DNA of 64,000 nt from Planctomycetota bacterium (GTDB lineage Bacteria > Planctomycetota > B15-G4): positions 62,001-126,000 of the forward strand of contig JAJDEO010000065.1 in NCBI GenBank assembly GCA_029259745.1, read 5' to 3'. The first letter of the stretch is position 1. The number at the start of each line of letters is the position of its first letter. The notes under the pieces are model-generated. The model did not search any database. It was not told the origin of the DNA and worked only from the letters and a program-made list of their open reading frames with translations. Shown here piece after piece: positions 2,813 through 12,427 of this stretch. The position numbers and the translations under genes were made by a program.

Positions 2813-3853
2813 ATGCTCACATGTCTTGCAGCTCTCATCGTCGCCGCCTCGGTGCTCGCCGACGCGACGCCCGCCCCGATCGTCGACCTGGAACGCGCCC
2901 GCGAGCTTGCCGCCGATCACGACCTCGAGGAGTGGGTCTCGAAAGACGGCCGCGTCTACTTGTTCACGAGCGCGAAGAATCTGAAGTCGGACGGCAAGCT
3001 CGTCGAGAAGACGCTCGACGCCTTCGACGATGTCCTCGGCGTCGAACAGGTCCACACCGACGCGGCGCTCGTGATCTTCGGGTACCCGACGGGCAAGCGA
3101 GCCACGTTCGAGCACCCGCTGTTTCTCGGGGCCTCGACGGATGACGACAGCGAACGAGACGCGGACGAGGAAGAAGACGAACGTGAGGCCGGCGGGCTGA
3201 GCGACCCCGGCGCCGCCTACTTCCGCTCCCTCACGCTCGACACACATGCTGCAGTCCGCTTCGGATACATCGACGCCGGTCTGTTCTCGTCCTACCGGAC
3301 AACGAAGGGTTCCGAGTGGAAGGAGATGTTCAACCCGCCGCAGAACATCCCCGAGGCCCAACTCGTCAACCGCCTGACGCACCTGTTGCTCTACCGCAAC
3401 TACGGTCCGCTCCCCATCTGGGTGAGACGTGGCGTCGCGTGGCATTTCGAGCACGAGCTGCTCGGTGAGGTGGCCGCATTCCCGCAACGCGACAACGTCC
3501 GCGAACGCCCCGCCAATGAGCCCGAGAACTGGAACGAGATCCTCGAGCGCAATGGCACGTCGCCGAAGCGCTTCGAGCAGATCGTCAAATGGACAGCGGC
3601 TTACTACGACGATCACTCAGCCCAGGCATGGGGCTACGCGAGTCATCTGCTGCGCAACAAGAAGACCGCCAAGGCACTCCCGAGTTTCCTGCTCTCCCTG
3701 TCGACGCGCGCCGAGGCGCTCTCCGCCGAGAACGACGGCTCACTCGAGGTGCCGGCCGACGAACAGACCGCGCTCATGGAAGAGCACTTCGGAAAGAAGA
3801 TCCAGCGCGACATCGAGCGCGCATTCGACAAGGCCGAGAAGTCCTTCAAGTGA
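2813..3853 (+). CDS. Secreted hypothetical protein resembling peptidase-MA/DUF1570 proteins
   Basis: A 346-residue protein starting MLTCLAALIVAASVLADA, a short signal peptide. The middle is acidic (DDDSERDADEEEDERE near residue 110). A later stretch, LPIWVRRGVAWHFEHEL near residue 204, resembles the segment around the active site of peptidase-MA-like/DUF1570 proteins (typically PxWLxEGxAxxxE). A proper HExxH is not visible, so it may be a non-catalytic relative. Only the last third of a longer open frame is taken as coding; the upstream part lies antisense to the metalloprotease. It is divergent from that gene, with about 235 bp between start codons. Function is unknown and the family link is tentative. 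Confidence 0.75.
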   Translation: MLTCLAALIVAASVLADATPAPIVDLERARELAADHDLEEWVSKDGRVYLFTSAKNLKSDGKLVEKTLDAFDDVLGVEQVHTDAALVIFGYPTGKRATFEHPLFLGASTDDDSERDADEEEDEREAGGLSDPGAAYFRSLTLDTHAAVRFGYIDAGLFSSYRTTKGSEWKEMFNPPQNIPEAQLVNRLTHLLLYRNYGPLPIWVRRGVAWHFEHELLGEVAAFPQRDNVRERPANEPENWNEILERNGTSPKRFEQIVKWTAAYYDDHSAQAWGYASHLLRNKKTAKALPSFLLSLSTRAEALSAENDGSLEVPADEQTALMEEHFGKKIQRDIERAFDKAEKSFK

Positions 3854-3972: not shown

Positions 3973-4893
3973 ATGATTGCACTGACCACACTCGTGCTCG
4001 CCGCTGCCCTCGATGACGTTTCCGTCGTTGCCCGCATGGGCGATGGCGTCATCGAAGCCGGCGCCGCGCACTCCTTCACCGTGGAGCTCGTCGTCCCCGA
4101 CGGCATCAGCACCGCGAACTCCGGGCTTCCCAGTCCATTCCTCCAACTCGACGTACCCGACGGCATCACGCTCACCGACAAGCCGAGCAACATGGACACG
4201 CGCCAGTACATCGGCGTGCCCTACGAGCGGCTCATGGAAGGCACGTCGGTCGAGATCCCGTTCGAGGTCGACGACGTGCTGGCCGACGGCGCGACGCTCG
4301 GCATCATCGTGACGGCCTACCTCAGCGATGCCGACACCAGCCGTTTCCTGCGCCAGCGTCTCGAGCTACCCATCAAAGGCGGCGCCCGCGCGCTCCCCGG
4401 CGATGCGACAAACTCGCACTGGGGCATCGACGACACGTTGCTGAAGATCGGCGACAAGGTCGAGGGATTTGCCGTCCCGCTCGCCGAAGGCATCGACCCG
4501 TTCGACCTCGGCACCGTGCTCGGCGAGCGCCCCATCTTCCTCACGACGTATCGTGCCCATTGGTGACCCTACTGCGCCAAGCAGCTCGTGCAGCTGCAAA
4601 GTGAGAAGGAACGTTTCGACGACATGGGAATCCTGATCGTCGGAATGAGTCAGGAAGAGAAAGACCTGAGCAACGTGCTCGAGATGGCCTCCAAGACCGG
4701 CGTGAAGTTTCCGCTTGTTCACGACGTGATGCGCAAGACAGCGCCGCAGTTCGATCGCACCAACGCGTACTACATCGACGCCGAGGGCATCGTCCGCCAG
4801 ATCTTCCCGATGTCCGCCTACATGCGTCCTTCGACGGACCTCGTCCTCAACGAGATCAAACGAATCCAGGATGCTGCGCGCGCCAAGCGCTGA
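3973..4893 (+). CDS. Redoxin (AhpC/TSA-like), candidate selenoprotein read through TGA at 4564
   Basis: Reading TGA 4564-4566 as selenocysteine gives 306 residues. Residues 1-15 look like a short signal peptide. About 20-145 form a beta-rich, DsbD-like N-terminal domain, and about 155-306 form a redoxin domain. The TGA (residue 198) sits exactly at the first cysteine of the redoxin active site: YRAHW, then TGA, then PYCAKQL. Family members have WCPYC there. The same frame stays open for 109 further codons and encodes the rest of the fold (ILIVGMSQEE, FPLVHD, YYIDAEGIVRQIF). A 6-bp hairpin begins 15 nt after the TGA. Predicted role: thiol/selenol redox or peroxide chemistry in the periplasm. 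Alternatives are a nonsense mutation or sequencing error; either would need to hit precisely this codon. Confidence 0.8.
4564..4597 (+). promoter_or_regulatory. Candidate bacterial SECIS element: in-frame TGA plus downstream hairpin
   Basis: TGA is at 4564-4566. A perfect 6-bp stem follows, GCAGCT at 4581-4586 with AGCTGC at 4592-4597, around a 5-nt loop CGTGC. The loop starts 21 nt after the TGA and has G at its second position. This matches the general layout of bacterial SECIS elements (UGA, short spacer, small upper stem, G early in the apical loop). The stem also encodes the ordinary family residues QLVQLQ, so it could be incidental. Confidence 0.5.
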
Positions 4894-5214: not shown

Positions 5215-8200
5215 ATGATCAACGCCCGTGCGTACCTCGTGCTCGTGTTCGCCCTGCTGCCCTGCATGAGTCGAGCGCAAACCGCTCCGTTCAGCGAGCA
5301 GCTCATCCTCTCAGGCGATCGTGCAGCCGTCATCGCAACGCTCCTCCCCGGGAGCTCGGCCGCCTTCTTCGAGCAGATCCGCCTCGCGCAGCACGAGGGT
5401 CGACTCGATGACGCCGATGCGCTCCTCGAAGCCTGGCACGCGACCGTCAAGGGAACGAACTCCCAGCGCACGACACTCGAGAACCGTCAGGCGCTGCTGC
5501 GCTACGCAACGTCGCCGGACATCACCTACGACCACCTCCTCGCGGCCCTGACACCAACACTCGACCACGAACGTTCGGCTGCGGTCGAAACGGCCGCCTT
5601 GCCCACGAGCATCGCCCCCGGCGCCCTGTCGCTCGCCGCGCTCACGGATGCCACGCTCGCCGCCGACCGCAGCACGCTCAAGCGCTTCACCACCGACGCG
5701 CTCCCGCGCCTCCTCGACCGTGTCCTCACAGACGCGCAGCGCGCCGAACTCCTCGAGCGCCTCACACGTCCCGACGCCCCGCGCCTCGTCGAGCACATCG
5801 TCCGCGATCTCCAGGCTCGTGATTTCTCCGCCTTCGGTGACCGCGGCGTGCATGCACGGCTCACGCTCGCACAGCTCGAAGACCTCGCCCAACAGCGCCC
5901 CGCGGTGCTCGACGAGCGGGCGTTCGTCGAGAGCATGTTGCAGCGGCTGGCGCCCGGGCACGACGTCGCGCTCGACACCGACGACGACGAGCGACGGGCC
6001 TGGCTCGCCCGCCTCGAAGCCTTCACGACGCGCCTGTCGCCGCGCTTCAACTCCCTCAAGGCCCACGTCCTCTACCACCGCATGCTCGATGACGAGCGCC
6101 GCGGCAGCTACGACCGTGAGCGGTTCGTGCGCTACCTGCGCATGCCGAGCCTGCAATACCTGCGCACGGAACAGCAACGCGAAGCCGCACCGTCCGAACG
6201 TGTCGACGTCGGCGCCGTCTACTCGATCGGCCTGCGTCCGATCGCCGACGACGGGCAGTTCGTCGAGCGGATGCTGCACCACTTCCTCGCTCGCGAACAA
6301 TCCGGGGCGGGCTTCTCCGACTTCATCGCGCCTGCGAAACTCCGAGTTCTCCAGGCCGAGGCCCAGATCCTCGCCGGCGCCGACGATCCCGAGCGTTGGT
6401 TCGCCCAGCTCGACGAGGAGCGACGTCGCGCCCTGCGCGATCGCATCGAGATCGCCTTCGCGCCGACGCAGCAGCGGTTCTTCGCACCCGAGAGCGACGT
6501 CACGCTGGTTGTCGACGTCAAGAACGTCAGCTCGCTCACGGTGGCGGTTTACGACATCGACGTCTCGGCCTTGTCCGGCCCACTCAATGAGTTCCTTTCC
6601 GTGGAGGGGCTCGTGGCGAACAGCACGTCGAGCCTCACGATCGACGCACCGGCCACGCAGCGGGTCCGGCGAGAGATCCCCGTGCCCGCCTTGTCGAAGC
6701 CCGGAAGCTATGTCGTCGATGTCGTCGGCGGTGGGCTCTCCGTGCGTGCCATCATCGAGAAGGGGCGGCTGCACCACACCACCCACGACGCCGAGGACGG
6801 TCAGCACGTGCGCGTCTATTCCCACGACGGCACGCATCTGCGCGACGCCTCCGTCTCGATCGAGCGACAACGCTTCGACGCCGACGAGCGCGGTGTCATC
6901 GTGCTTCCGTTCAGCTCCGCGAAGCGCGCTGTCGCGATGGTGCTCGAACACGGCCGGCTCGCCACTCGCGTGACGCACGTCTTCGAGAACGAAACGTACG
7001 AACTCTTCGCCGGCGCCTGGGTCGACCGCGAGGCCCTCGCCCAGCCGCGCGCCACGCTCGTCCTGAGCCCCGCACTCACCCTCAACGGAGCATCGATCGC
7101 CGTCGACCTCCTCGATGACGTGACGCTGACGCTCGTGGCAACCGACCTCGACGGCGTGCAGACGACCGACGTCCTGAGCGACATCACCTTGAACACGGAG
7201 GGCGAGTTCGCGCACACGCTCGCCGTCCCCGAGCGACTCGCTTCGTTGAAGGTGACCCTGCGAGCGAGCATCGAAACGCTGCTCGGCGAGACCTGGAACC
7301 TCGCGAGTGAGTCCGCGACGTTCAAGGTCGGCGGACTCGTGGGCACCGAGACGATCGGGGCGCCGCTGCTCCTCCAGACGCCGAGCGGTTGGGCCGTGGA
7401 GTTGCTCGGACGCAACGGTGAGCCTCTGGTCGACGAACAGATCGCCCTGCGCCTCGCGCACCGCGACTTCGTCGCCGAGCTGCCCTTCAAGCTGCGCACC
7501 GACGAACGCGGCCGAGCATCTCTCGGCCCGCTCCCCGGCATCACGCGCGTGACTGCATCACACGGCGAGGCGGCACGCGCCTGGCCGATCGACAACGCGC
7601 TCCAGTCGACGTACGACGCCACGCCGACAGCCACGCTCCACGCGCTCGTCGGCGACACGGTGCGCATCCCGTGGCACGGCGCCCCACTCGACCGCCGCGA
7701 CGTGTCGCTGATCGAACTCCGTGGCGACGTGCCGTTCGCCGACCGCTTCTCGCACGTCGCCGTTGTCGAGAACCTGCTGACGATCTCGGGTTTGTCTGCG
7801 GGCGCGTACACGCTGCACGTCCGCCCGACAGACACCATCACTTCGCTCTTCGTGTCCGCGGGCACACGCCGCGATGGCCTCATCGTCGGCAACACGACCA
7901 TGGCCCTCGACGCGCAACCGCCGCTGCTACGCATCGGACAACTCGAGGTTGTCGGCGACGAGCTCGTCGTCCGCGTCGACGACGCCACGGCGACAACGCG
8001 GCTACATGTCATCGCCAACCGCTACGGACACGAACTCGACCCTCTGCTCGCCTGGGAGCCGATGCCGGCCTGGCCACACAACGCGCTCGAGCGCGACGTC
8101 GTCGAGTCGCGCTTCACGTCGATCCGCCCGCTCAGCGACGAGGAGCGCTACGTCCTCGCGCGGCGCGCCCTCGACGGTCGGCCCGGAAACATGCTCGACC

Positions 8201-11200
8201 GCCCCTCGCTGATCATGAACCCACTCGCCATCGACGAGCTCAACGTCGAGGCCAACTTCGACTCGACGGGGCTCAACGATGTCATCGGCATCGGTGGCGG
8301 CGGCGGTGGCGGCTTTGGGAAGTTGGGCCGACGTGGTTCGTCGGGGCGACGCGCCGGGAGCCCCGCGAGCATGGGGCCGGGTGTTTCATCCCGGTCGGCC
8401 GACCTGCGCTTCCTCGGCGATGCGCCGATGCTGCGGCTCGACGTGTCGCTCGACAGTGACGGCCGCGCGCGCATCCCGCTGAGTGAGCTCGGCTCGCGTC
8501 ATCTCGTGCGCGCCGTCGCTGTCGACACGTCGGTGGCCGCAGCACGCACGGTCGCGCTCCCCGAGCAACCGCTGGTCCGGCGCGACCGCCGCCTCGCGAC
8601 GTCGCTTCCGGGCACCGGCACGGTCGTCCATCGTCAGCGCTTCGACGTCCTCGAGGCCGGCGCACGGATCGTCATCGAACGCGACGCCACGCCACGCTAC
8701 GACCTCGTCGACACGCTCGACGACATCTATCAGCTCCAGCGCTCGCTGTGCCCCGACGAAGAACTCGTGCGCTTCGAGTTCCTCATGCGCTGGCCGTCGT
8801 TCAGTCTCGAGCAGAAGCTCGATCACCTCTCGCGCTTCGCGTGTCACGAGCTGCACGTCTTCCTGCACGAGAAGGACCGCGCCTTCTTCGACGAACACGT
8901 GCGACCGACGATCGCCGACAAGCGCCGCCCCAACATCGTCGACCTCTGGCTGCTCGACGCCGACCTCAACGCCTTCACGGAGAGCTGGACGTTCTCGACG
9001 CTCAGCGTCATCGAGAAGGCGCTGCTCGCGCGGGCACGACCCGACCGCGCTGCGGCGACGTCGCGCTGGATCGCCGAGGGGGCGCCGAGTGAATCGACGC
9101 AGCGTGCGCGCGACGCGCTCTTCGCCCTCTCCGGCCTGGACGAGGAGGCCGTGGAGGTCGTCGCCGAGCGGCTCGTCACGGAGGACGTCGCACCGTCGCG
9201 GGCCGCGCGCGGGCAGTCTGGCCGCAAGCGCGCGGGGCCGCCGAAGCTCTGGAGCCGCCCCGCCGACCTCGCCATGCTCGTCGAGCACGGCTACTGGCAG
9301 CACATGGTGCGTCACCAGATCGCGCGCCCGATCGCGCCGAACCGCTTCTGGAGCGAGTTCGCCGCGGCTGATGCGAGCGCGCCGTTCGTCTCGGCGGCCG
9401 TGATCGACGCGACGACTTCGTTGACCGAGTGTGTCTTCGCGCTGGCCTTCACCGACCTTCCGTTCGAGGCCGGTGACCATGCGATCGAGGTCGACGACAC
9501 GACCACGACCGTGACGCTCGCGAGCCGCGCACTCGTGGCACGTGAAGAGCTGGTTGCCGAGGCCGGTGAACTCGCGCCGTCGGTGATCGGCATCGGCATG
9601 AGCATCCGCCACCGGGGCAGCGATCGCGGGCTCGTGCAAGACGAGCTCGTCGTCGGCGAGACTTACATGGTGCAGGCCATCGCATCGAACCCGACGACGG
9701 AGACGCTCGCCGTCGACGTGCTCATGCAGATCCCGGCCGGGGCCGTCCCACTCGGGGGAACGCGCGCCACGCGCACCGAGCGCCTCTCGCTGCGCCCCTT
9801 CGGAATCGCCACGCTGACGCAGGTCTTCTACTACCCCGAGGCCGTGCCTGCGAGCCTCACACCGGTGCGCGCATCGATCGACGGCAAGCCCGTTGCCGTG
9901 GCTTCGTTCGATCCGCTGCGCGTCGTCCCCGAGGCGACCTCCGTCGACACGACGACCTGGGAGCACATCGCGCAGCACGCTCCGCTCGCCGGCGTCCTCG
10001 ACGCCCTGCGCTCGCGCGACATCGGCACGCTCGACATGGACCTCGTCGCGTGGCGCATGGCCGACCGCGCAGCCTTCAAGGCGATCACCAACACGCTGCG
10101 CGAGCGGCTCACCTACGACGCCACGCTCTGGGCCTACTCGCTGCTTCACCGCGACGAACGCACAGCGGCGGAGTACATCGCCCAAGTTCCGCGCTTCGTC
10201 GAGTCGTGCGGCGGCGCGCTCGTCTCACCGCTGCTGACGATCGACGCCGAGGCACGCTGGCTCCGTCAGCATGTCGAATACGCACCGCTCTTCGCGCCGC
10301 GCACCCATCCCCGCCCCGGCCAACCGAGGTTCTGGATCGGCCAACTCAGTGACTCCTGGCAGGAACTCCTCGAGCAGCTCGCGTGGAAGCCAGCGTTCGA
10401 CGACGTCGACCATCTCGAACTCACGTGGTGGCTGCTGTTGCAGGATCGCGTCGACGAGGCGCTCGAGATGTTCGCGCGCGTCGACACTGCGAACGTCGGC
10501 ATGGAGACGCAGATCGCCTACCTGTCGGCCTACCTCGCGATGTCCTCGAGCGACCCCGATGCTGCGCGAGCCATCGCGAGCGGGCATCTCGACCACCCAC
10601 TCGCGCACTGGCGAGAGCGCTTCGCCGAAGTCGTCGCGCACGCTGACGAGGCGCAACAGCTGGACACGGCCGCAGGCGGTGCCCCCACCGACCCACTCGA
10701 CGCAGGGCGCCGGGCACCCTCGCTGCACGTCGACGTCGTGAACGGTGAGATCATCATCGAGCACGAGAATGTCGCAACGTGCGAGGTGCTCTTCGCGCCC
10801 GTCGACATCGAGCTGATGTTCTCGACGCGCCCCTTCGGCAGCGCGCTCGACGACGACCCGCTCGTCACGCGCCCCCATCGCGTCGAGACGCTCGACGTCG
10901 ACGGACCGGTCACGCGCCTGGCCATGCCCGACGCCTACACCACTCGCAACGCGATCATCGAAGTCCGCGCGGGCGGGCTCGTCGAACGGACGACGAGCGA
11001 GGCCCACTCGATGCACGTCCGCCTCGCCGAGTCGCAGGGCGAGGTCAAGGTCACCGACGCCGCAGCGCGCACACCACTTCCGGCCGTCTACGTGAAGGTC
11101 TACGCGAAGCTGCGCGGCGGAGTCGTGCGTTTCCACAAGGACGGCTACACCGATCTGCGCGGGCGCTTCGACTACGCCTCGCTGACGGGCAACACGGACG

Positions 11201-11280
11201 TCGTCGAGTCGTTCGCCGTCCTCGTGATGAGCGATGAGCACGGGTCTGCCCGGCGCGAAGTCGACGCCCCGCTGCGTTGA
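5215..11280 (+). CDS. Giant secreted alpha-2-macroglobulin-like protein (2021 aa)
   Basis: It starts with a signal peptide (MINARAYLVLVFALLPCMSRA). Residues about 20-400 are helical and without recognised motifs. About 410-1000 are beta-rich, with macroglobulin-like features (DVTLVVDVKNVSSLTVAVYD near 430). A glycine-rich, basic linker (GIGGGGGGGFGKLGRRG) lies near residue 1024, and an alpha-helical region follows. The C-terminus has VYVKVYAKLRGG and KDGYTDLRGRFDYASL, a carboxypeptidase-regulatory-like end I associate with large planctomycete secreted proteins. There is no CxEQ thioester motif, so covalent trapping as in classical alpha-2-macroglobulin is not expected. Role: possibly cell-surface or periplasmic protein interaction; function unknown. 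It is followed 52 nt later by the metallo-beta-lactamase-like gene on the same strand, possibly co-transcribed. Confidence 0.85.
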   Translation: MINARAYLVLVFALLPCMSRAQTAPFSEQLILSGDRAAVIATLLPGSSAAFFEQIRLAQHEGRLDDADALLEAWHATVKGTNSQRTTLENRQALLRYATSPDITYDHLLAALTPTLDHERSAAVETAALPTSIAPGALSLAALTDATLAADRSTLKRFTTDALPRLLDRVLTDAQRAELLERLTRPDAPRLVEHIVRDLQARDFSAFGDRGVHARLTLAQLEDLAQQRPAVLDERAFVESMLQRLAPGHDVALDTDDDERRAWLARLEAFTTRLSPRFNSLKAHVLYHRMLDDERRGSYDRERFVRYLRMPSLQYLRTEQQREAAPSERVDVGAVYSIGLRPIADDGQFVERMLHHFLAREQSGAGFSDFIAPAKLRVLQAEAQILAGADDPERWFAQLDEERRRALRDRIEIAFAPTQQRFFAPESDVTLVVDVKNVSSLTVAVYDIDVSALSGPLNEFLSVEGLVANSTSSLTIDAPATQRVRREIPVPALSKPGSYVVDVVGGGLSVRAIIEKGRLHHTTHDAEDGQHVRVYSHDGTHLRDASVSIERQRFDADERGVIVLPFSSAKRAVAMVLEHGRLATRVTHVFENETYELFAGAWVDREALAQPRATLVLSPALTLNGASIAVDLLDDVTLTLVATDLDGVQTTDVLSDITLNTEGEFAHTLAVPERLASLKVTLRASIETLLGETWNLASESATFKVGGLVGTETIGAPLLLQTPSGWAVELLGRNGEPLVDEQIALRLAHRDFVAELPFKLRTDERGRASLGPLPGITRVTASHGEAARAWPIDNALQSTYDATPTATLHALVGDTVRIPWHGAPLDRRDVSLIELRGDVPFADRFSHVAVVENLLTISGLSAGAYTLHVRPTDTITSLFVSAGTRRDGLIVGNTTMALDAQPPLLRIGQLEVVGDELVVRVDDATATTRLHVIANRYGHELDPLLAWEPMPAWPHNALERDVVESRFTSIRPLSDEERYVLARRALDGRPGNMLDRPSLIMNPLAIDELNVEANFDSTGLNDVIGIGGGGGGGFGKLGRRGSSGRRAGSPASMGPGVSSRSADLRFLGDAPMLRLDVSLDSDGRARIPLSELGSRHLVRAVAVDTSVAAARTVALPEQPLVRRDRRLATSLPGTGTVVHRQRFDVLEAGARIVIERDATPRYDLVDTLDDIYQLQRSLCPDEELVRFEFLMRWPSFSLEQKLDHLSRFACHELHVFLHEKDRAFFDEHVRPTIADKRRPNIVDLWLLDADLNAFTESWTFSTLSVIEKALLARARPDRAAATSRWIAEGAPSESTQRARDALFALSGLDEEAVEVVAERLVTEDVAPSRAARGQSGRKRAGPPKLWSRPADLAMLVEHGYWQHMVRHQIARPIAPNRFWSEFAAADASAPFVSAAVIDATTSLTECVFALAFTDLPFEAGDHAIEVDDTTTTVTLASRALVAREELVAEAGELAPSVIGIGMSIRHRGSDRGLVQDELVVGETYMVQAIASNPTTETLAVDVLMQIPAGAVPLGGTRATRTERLSLRPFGIATLTQVFYYPEAVPASLTPVRASIDGKPVAVASFDPLRVVPEATSVDTTTWEHIAQHAPLAGVLDALRSRDIGTLDMDLVAWRMADRAAFKAITNTLRERLTYDATLWAYSLLHRDERTAAEYIAQVPRFVESCGGALVSPLLTIDAEARWLRQHVEYAPLFAPRTHPRPGQPRFWIGQLSDSWQELLEQLAWKPAFDDVDHLELTWWLLLQDRVDEALEMFARVDTANVGMETQIAYLSAYLAMSSSDPDAARAIASGHLDHPLAHWRERFAEVVAHADEAQQLDTAAGGAPTDPLDAGRRAPSLHVDVVNGEIIIEHENVATCEVLFAPVDIELMFSTRPFGSALDDDPLVTRPHRVETLDVDGPVTRLAMPDAYTTRNAIIEVRAGGLVERTTSEAHSMHVRLAESQGEVKVTDAAARTPLPAVYVKVYAKLRGGVVRFHKDGYTDLRGRFDYASLTGNTDVVESFAVLVMSDEHGSARREVDAPLR

Positions 11281-11332
11281 TGCTGGGATCCACCGGCGCG
11301 CGTCAGTAGCTTTCACAGGCACGGAGGTAGTC

Positions 11333-12427
11333 ATGGTTCGACTCGTGTTGACGTGGACGATGTGGTGCGCGCTCAGTGCCGCGCTTGCGGGGCCGGACGA
11401 CACGCGCGGGGCGGGGCAGCTCGTTGCGCTGATCGGCGAGCGGTGGTCGGATGTGGTCGACGTGCTCGAGTCGGGAGCGCGGCCGCGCGTCTTTGCAGCC
11501 GAAGCGGCGCGCGCCAGCATCACGGCGCTCGAGGACGAGGTCACACTCGTGGCACGCACAGCTCACCACGCACTGGCGGTCGAGATCGCGCGTGACCTCG
11601 GAACGCGCTGCGCGGGCGTGCTCCTCATCGGCTCGCACGACGAGATCGTCCTCGATGCACCCGTCGTGACGCTTGCAAACGACACACCGCCGCGCATCCG
11701 TGACGCCCTCGCCGCGCACGATCTCGACGTCGTCACGCTCGCCCACGACCTCGATGTCCGGCCGCTCTGGCGCCCCGGCCCGCGCATGTGGCTGCACCGT
11801 TCGTCCGTCGTCATGAACGGCAGCCCGGTGTGGGGCAATGGTGCGCTCGTCGTGGGCGAAGGCGGCGCGGTGTTGCTCGACACGCCGTGGACGGGCGAAC
11901 AGACCACGCTGCTCGACGCCTGGGCACGCCACTCGCTCGGCGCGCCGATCCGTGCCGCGTTCGTCTCCCACGCCCATGCCGACGCAGCCGGCGGAACCGC
12001 GAGCCTGACTGCACGCGGCATCCCCGTCCACGGGTCGGCGGACACGAAACGCTTTGCCGCCGAGATCGACGTCGAGGTCCCGAGCCACACGTTCGCGCGC
12101 GAAGCCGTCCTGGAGGTCGCCGGCCTGGCGATCGATCTCTACGCGCCGGGGGACGGACACGCACCGGGCAACGCCGTCGCCGCCGTGCGCCACAGCGACG
12201 TGGTTTTCGGCGGCTGCCTCGTCAAGAGCGTCCGCGCGCGCGGCATGGGCTTCGTAGGACATGCCGATCTCGACAGCTGGCCCCGCGCCCTCGACGCCGT
12301 CGCTGCACGCTTCCCCGCTGCGCGGCTGCTCATCCCGGGACACGGCTCGCCCGGCGAACCCAAGGCGCTCCTCACACACACGCGTACCATGGTCACCACC
12401 TTCCGCGAGGGCACGCGGGGCGGCTGA
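11333..12427 (+). CDS. Metallo-beta-lactamase fold protein of subclass B1 type with N-terminal extension
   Basis: A 364-residue protein with a good GGAGG site 5 nt before ATG 11333 and a signal peptide (1-19). Residues 20-150 form an extra domain I do not recognise. Residues about 152-360 form a metallo-beta-lactamase domain with the full B1-type ligand set: HAHAD (His213, His215, Asp217), His276 in GDGHAPGN, Cys295 in FGGCLVKS and His337 in PGHG. The segment GNGALVVGEGGAVLLDTPW is also typical of B1 enzymes. A periplasmic zinc hydrolase is likely; beta-lactamase activity is inferred from ligands only. B1-like proteins with other substrates are the main alternative. It lies directly downstream of the giant secreted protein gene. 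Confidence 0.85.
   Translation: MVRLVLTWTMWCALSAALAGPDDTRGAGQLVALIGERWSDVVDVLESGARPRVFAAEAARASITALEDEVTLVARTAHHALAVEIARDLGTRCAGVLLIGSHDEIVLDAPVVTLANDTPPRIRDALAAHDLDVVTLAHDLDVRPLWRPGPRMWLHRSSVVMNGSPVWGNGALVVGEGGAVLLDTPWTGEQTTLLDAWARHSLGAPIRAAFVSHAHADAAGGTASLTARGIPVHGSADTKRFAAEIDVEVPSHTFAREAVLEVAGLAIDLYAPGDGHAPGNAVAAVRHSDVVFGGCLVKSVRARGMGFVGHADLDSWPRALDAVAARFPAARLLIPGHGSPGEPKALLTHTRTMVTTFREGTRGG

Follow-up and report, generated by a model that had tools for sequence, protein, structure and literature searches.

Does a single in-frame TGA end a gene, or is it read as selenocysteine? This question is raised by two open reading frames on the forward strand of a 64,000-nucleotide stretch of planctomycete DNA (hereafter the window). 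The first frame starts with ATG at 3973, encodes 197 amino acids and ends at TGA 4564–4566; in the same frame, 108 more codons (4567–4890) follow up to the stop TGA 4891–4893. An earlier sequence-only reading had described the two frames as abutting and separated by nothing but this TGA, which the sequence confirms; its downstream part is intact as stated, while its count of 109 codons corrects to 108 plus the stop. Across the TGA, the residues read TTYRAHW-U-PYCAKQL. Frame geometry alone is weak evidence, because the window is rich in GC and TGA-split frames commonly arise in it by chance: 24 abutting pairs with a nearby Cys turned up in a crude scan, the case at 4564–4566 included. Chance can be excluded, however, since an AhpC-TSA match spans the TGA and all homologues of the same architecture have a TGA at this codon. 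On the comparative sequence data, we consider it highly probable that 3973–4893 is a single, probably exported selenoprotein gene of 306 codons for amino acids, in which UGA 4564–4566 would be read as selenocysteine (Sec) by means of a hairpin, yielding a peroxiredoxin (Prx)-like UxxC enzyme. Automatic annotation yields two hypothetical ORFs here, and the active site is lost. The features are listed in Table 1.

Table 1 Features of the putative selenoprotein gene in the window and further redoxin genes with an internal TGA in the same genome.
Feature	Position	Strand	Basis and remarks
Putative selenoprotein gene	3973–4893	+	306 aa with Sec198; table-11 ORFs 3973–4566 and 4567–4893 joined; full-length homologue alignment
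Short hydrophobic N-terminus, possible export signal	3973–4017	+	Predicted from sequence; weak in the window copy, clearer in homologues
N-terminal Ig-like beta domain	4018–4422	+	Approximately residues 16–150; AlphaFold, weak fold matches
Redoxin/AhpC-TSA thioredoxin-fold domain	4447–4800	+	Residues 159–276; PF00578, 54.2 bits; folds like ResA, Bcp and AhpC-type Prx
Proposed Sec codon U198 (in-frame TGA), opening the UxxC motif	4564–4566	+	34/34 distinct related loci have TGA in this column; selA, selB, selC and selD in genome
Cys201 codon (U+3), proposed resolving Cys	4573–4575	+	No other Cys conserved in the family
Candidate SECIS hairpin	4581–4597	+	Stem 4581–4586/4592–4597 (6 bp), loop CGUGC 4587–4591; folding, covariation, bSECIS fit
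PF00578 redoxin with internal TGA (L077)	C60:214359–214796		TGA at catalytic Cys
PF00578 redoxin with internal TGA (L081)	C5:70524–70874		TGA at catalytic Cys
PF00578 redoxin with internal TGA (L086)	C60:40924–41307		TGA at catalytic Cys
PF00578 redoxin with internal TGA (L088)	C41:14621–14896		TGA at catalytic Cys
PF00578 redoxin with internal TGA	C60:444824–445093		One internal TGA

Read through the TGA, the protein matches AhpC-TSA (PF00578) with 54.2 bits, whereas its downstream part reaches 33.1 bits by itself (gathering cut-off 26), and all 28 full-length members of this architecture match the family at E ≤ 0.1. The proposal that the TGA takes the place of the first cysteine of a WCPYC-type redoxin site is borne out by this spanning match and by the WxPYC context. 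UxxC is found in 33 of the 34 related Sec loci, and the Cys at U+3 is the single other conserved Cys of the family. The exception is L028 (L028:1483–2445, minus strand), which reads LUPGS with the resolving Cys apparently moved to U−2; this swap from U+3 to U−2 fits a relocated resolving Cys and therefore selenenylsulfide chemistry. An AlphaFold model built with 28 homologues (pLDDT 89.6, pTM 0.88) consists of an all-beta N-terminal domain and a thioredoxin-fold C-terminal domain, the latter matching ResA, Bcp and AhpC-type peroxiredoxins.

Even with UGA read as Sec, the enzyme might be a Prx-type peroxidase, reduced via its N-terminal domain or a partner thioredoxin, and not a thiol:disulfide oxidoreductase; we regard this as a realistic, if not the favoured, possibility. 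AhpC-TSA is the best Pfam match, Bcp peroxiredoxin is among the best solved relatives by profile, and our reading of the alignment places a Prx-like Arg-Thr-x-x-Tyr-x-(Ile/Leu/Val)-Asp segment where ResA has its cis-Pro. The TxxC/TxxU peroxiredoxin signature, however, is absent: the window protein has AHWU, with no Thr at U−3, and its UxxC pair resembles that of ResA/TlpA, while ResA and Prx score about equally as fold matches. Given the UxxC pair and the missing TxxC Thr, 'Prx-like thiol:disulfide oxidoreductase' is a more apt name than 'peroxiredoxin'. The residue had initially been taken for the peroxidatic or first Cys; the first, nucleophilic position holds, but is refined to a thioredoxin/TlpA-like UxxC site. 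The model for SelL-related redox proteins (NF040769) gave 17.4 bits against an NCBIfam cut-off of 120, and no NCBIfam model scored above its cut-off for the subfamily.

The sequence-only reading had suggested a search for a bacterial SECIS. A SECIS-like hairpin with covariation does lie right after the TGA. Every Sec gene can form it at the same place, pairing nucleotides 18–24 with 28–34 (U of UGA = 1), and in many homologues the seventh pair closes the loop (GUN/GGN); across the Sec genes, the apical loop begins with G-U or G-G. In total, 96.6% of the pair cells are paired, compared with 87.1% after column shuffling and at most 44.1% when the positions are slid. Double-sided changes occur in four of the seven pairs, and the covariation score is 0.290 versus 0.124 for shuffled alignments (0/500 shuffles). 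The clearest signal links two codons, that of Gln at U+6 and that of Leu at U+10: CAA goes with TTG in 13 of 13 genes (1.9 expected if the Leu usage of each gene is taken into account; TTG makes up about 15% of the Leu codons in these 13 genes) and CAG with CTG in 21 of 21 (8.5 expected). The homologues are related and not independent, which inflates these counts, yet CAA-TTG and CAG-CTG genes are interspersed in the tree. Protein conservation cannot explain this synonymous pairing, and the compensatory changes of the hairpin as a whole are for the most part synonymous.

Fold energies at this place range from −8.0 to −14.5 kcal/mol in the Sec genes, whereas five of six Cys relatives show −1.5 to −5.4 kcal/mol; the sixth reaches −9.1 kcal/mol with a different fold. 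In single-sequence folding, the window hairpin exceeds shuffled sequence in stability by a modest margin only (z −1.5), and the conserved QLxxL peptide accounts for part of its palindrome. The SECIS argument thus rests on covariation, because single-sequence folding gives no strong z-score. Published bSECIS constraints comprise an apical loop of 3–9 nt, an upper stem of 4–16 bp, a spacing of 16–37 nt, a G among the first two loop nucleotides and a minimum free energy of −7.5 kcal/mol or lower (PMC13188914). The hairpins found here fall within these limits, with 6 bp and a 5-nt CGUGC loop or 7 bp and a 3-nt GUN loop, a spacing of about 20 nt and −10.7 to −15.8 kcal/mol.

The hairpin also bears on the idea that the locus gives two products, i.e., one N-terminal protein that stops at 4566 and another re-initiated at GTG 4588 (table-11 ORF 4588–4893), the start that ORF callers report. 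Such a product would be left without the PYC of the active site and with only half of the fold, and the AlphaFold domain needs both parts. Moreover, this GTG is part of the hairpin's apical loop, and P199, C201, Q204 and L205, located between TGA and GTG, are invariant or nearly so. We therefore reject re-initiation at 4588 as very unlikely, on account of the lost active site, the position of the GTG in the hairpin loop and the conserved intervening residues.

Next, we consider how the TGA is conserved. At the order level, exactly one internal TGA was present in 7 of 7 homologous places, each time at the active site, with the motifs WUPYC, WUPFC, TUGRC, WULFC, WULYC and LUPGS. The collection was extended by a phylum-wide profile search (392 genomes) and by a scan of named genomes with C-terminal peptide patterns that do not cover the TGA (26 loci); the named loci belong to Planctomycetota (Phycisphaerae and others), with one labelled just 'bacterium'. 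After removal of duplicates, 34 distinct Sec loci remained, all with TGA at the same column. Among them are 28 full-length loci with the architecture of the window protein (window gene included), 27–40% identical to it; in these searches, 28 of 28 carry TGA and 0 of 28 have Cys at this column. Cys aligns with the TGA solely in distant single-domain WCP(F/Y/A)C relatives (L036, L038, L039 and L042–L044). The Cys that homologues were expected to show in place of TGA thus occurs in a distant single-domain sister group, but not in homologues of the same architecture. The downstream part, said from the start to look conserved, aligns over its full length in the homologues, and its codons are under protein-level conservation.

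These data speak against a pseudogene or sequencing error, that is, a premature stop in, or a misread TGC or TGT of, an ordinary Cys redoxin. A plausible redoxin sequence does continue behind the TGA, and TGA is one base away from TGC or TGT, but the 28 divergent full-length loci, which come from many genomes assembled independently of one another, share this TGA and none has Cys, and both the downstream protein sequence and the hairpin are conserved. The recurrence across independent genomes refutes this explanation, to which we assign a negligible probability.

The tree unites all 34 Sec rows in one clade (99/94), separate from the Cys relatives. This clade contains the subclades S1 (N-terminal domain plus redoxin; 97/95) and S2 (redoxin plus C-terminal domain; 100/96). 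Since all Sec rows fall into one clade and no Cys occurs in the 28 loci of the same architecture, Sec appears to be fixed in this clade. As the subfamily is sizeable and Sec-invariant, methods relying on Cys/Sec pairs among close homologues would see it poorly. The S2 members (L026, L027, L037, L041 and L046) begin with a WUL(Y/F)C redoxin, and their domain order is opposite to that of the window protein; the C-terminal domain matches DsbD_N (PF11412) above cut-off in three of the five proteins.

Sec insertion requires dedicated machinery, and the check for selA, selB, selC and selD elsewhere in the genome (5.88 Mb, 91% complete) returned all four. SelA scored 350.8 bits, SelB 332 bits (cut-off 242) and SelD 303 bits (cut-off 125); tRNA-Sec reached 71.2 bits (gathering score 47) and was called SeC with anticodon tca by ARAGORN. 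The genes for SelA and tRNA-Sec are both located on contig C20, about 3.5 kb apart. Within the order, 13 of 14 genomes have SelA, and a class-wide search covered the same 14 genomes. Of 24 PF00578 matches in the genome, six (window gene included) contain one internal TGA. In all five that were read, the TGA sits at the catalytic Cys, and besides the window gene, the active sites of L077, L081, L086 and L088 read WUPYC, YUSGC, WUGPC and WUAGC. A genome-wide reassignment of TGA (e.g., to Trp, Gly or Cys) without selenium, which several redoxin genes with in-frame TGA might suggest, can be dismissed as having virtually no likelihood: TGA ends both the window gene (4891–4893) and the upstream gene (3851–3853), the tested SelA, SelB and SelD genes and most PF00578 genes lack internal stops, no housekeeping gene in the families searched has an internal TGA, the redoxin TGAs that were read are at the catalytic Cys, and tRNA-Sec and the whole Sec pathway are present.

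Overall, the genome looks rich in redoxin selenoproteins. Despite the full Sec machinery, no formate dehydrogenase alpha subunit scored above the NCBIfam cut-off in the 91% complete genome. Sec may therefore be kept mainly for redoxins in this organism, as far as can be judged from an incomplete genome in which redoxins and formate dehydrogenase were searched.

The N-terminal region had been described as an exported beta domain. A conserved Ig-like domain is indeed predicted, while the signal peptide of the window copy is weak. Modelled alone with AlphaFold (pLDDT 85.7), the domain resembles Ig-like sandwiches, and its best fold matches are weak; the N-terminal domains of DsbD and ScsB recur among them (E ~0.006–0.09, TM ~0.4). 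Credible Pfam or NCBIfam matches were found for this domain in none of the 28 members. These members also share no conserved Cys in it: any Cys occurs in the N-terminal region of 9 of 28, and the commonest position is Cys in 7 of 28. The DsbD-alpha domain (PF11412) is likewise Ig-like and is carried C-terminally by the S2 sisters, but the window domain shows neither a profile match to it nor the conserved Cys pair, and a profile comparison with the S2 DsbD_N domain gave a probability of 4% and nothing convincing. A DsbD-alpha-like origin is possible on the basis of the fold comparison, and we treat it as a lead, not a result.

How does this protein relate to known selenoproteins? The Sargasso Sea survey (PMC1088965) already reported UxxC Prx-like selenoproteins, which are also covered in reviews (PMC9312934; PMC13188914); fusions of Prx-like selenodomains to unknown domains have also been described (PMC2398784). 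The window protein shares with the pfam00578 families from the Sargasso Sea and GOS data (PMC1088965, PMC2398784, PMC9312934) the AhpC-TSA fold, UxxC instead of TxxU and a SECIS directly 3'. Unlike those families as described, it carries a Cys-free Ig-like N-terminal fusion, and its architecture was found solely in Planctomycetota in our searches, without a Cys orthologue. The Unknown_3 fusions (PMC2398784) similarly join a Prx-like UxxC selenodomain to an uncharacterised domain, but that domain has three conserved Cys including a CxxC, whereas the N-terminal domain here has none; the S2 architecture may be closer to these fusions. With ResA, TlpA and CcmG, among its best fold matches, the protein shares the thioredoxin fold, the WCxxC position and the extracytoplasmic setting, but it differs by Sec instead of Cys, the Prx-like Arg segment in place of the cis-Pro loop and the extra domain. 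Bcp/PrxQ and AhpC peroxiredoxins resemble the redoxin domain in profile and fold, but the UxxC site, the missing TxxC Thr and scores far below the NCBIfam cut-offs set it apart.

In the literature examined, neither a Cys-free Ig-like fusion nor a Sec-only planctomycete clade is described. The protein is thus probably a new member of the UxxC Prx-like selenoproteins and arguably represents a new subfamily, as judged against published descriptions and NCBIfam. The broader picture would be a planctomycete subfamily with fixed Sec and an undescribed Cys-free Ig-like domain, embedded in an extracytoplasmic selenoproteome rich in redoxins (at least five such genes in this genome) that maintains the Sec trait instead of formate dehydrogenase; we consider this about an even proposition. 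With this subfamily, one can ask directly why planctomycetes retain the costly Sec pathway and what role Sec plays in envelope thiol chemistry, and its N-terminal domain together with the DsbD_N-carrying sister group suggests a testable link to DsbD-like electron transfer.

The UxxC selenoenzyme proposed from the sequence alone is supported by the machinery, the TGA recurrence, the downstream conservation and the covarying hairpin. In the suggested mechanism, the hairpin right after UGA 4564–4566 would recruit SelB with Sec-tRNA(Sec), and selenocysteine would be inserted at the UGA. Sec198, as the nucleophile of the UxxC site, would attack an oxidised substrate (peroxide or disulfide), and Cys201 would resolve it through a selenenylsulfide. 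The Cys-free Ig-like domain, possibly a diverged DsbD-alpha-like one, would probably serve for docking or targeting. Comparative sequence evidence supports the TGA position, the machinery, the RNA hairpin, the full-length conservation and the single Cys partner; from these we infer the SelB-dependent insertion itself, export, the redox chemistry and the docking role. The substrate and partners of the enzyme are likewise presumed.

A comparison of gene neighbourhoods found no conserved neighbouring gene, and the gene appears to stand alone. Directly downstream lies an ORF of 2021 residues (5215–11280, forward strand) with a signal-peptide-like N-terminus and no Pfam match at E 0.001. Its end is overlapped by a gene for a metallo-beta-lactamase-fold protein (11234–12427, forward strand; PF00753, 37.9 bits).
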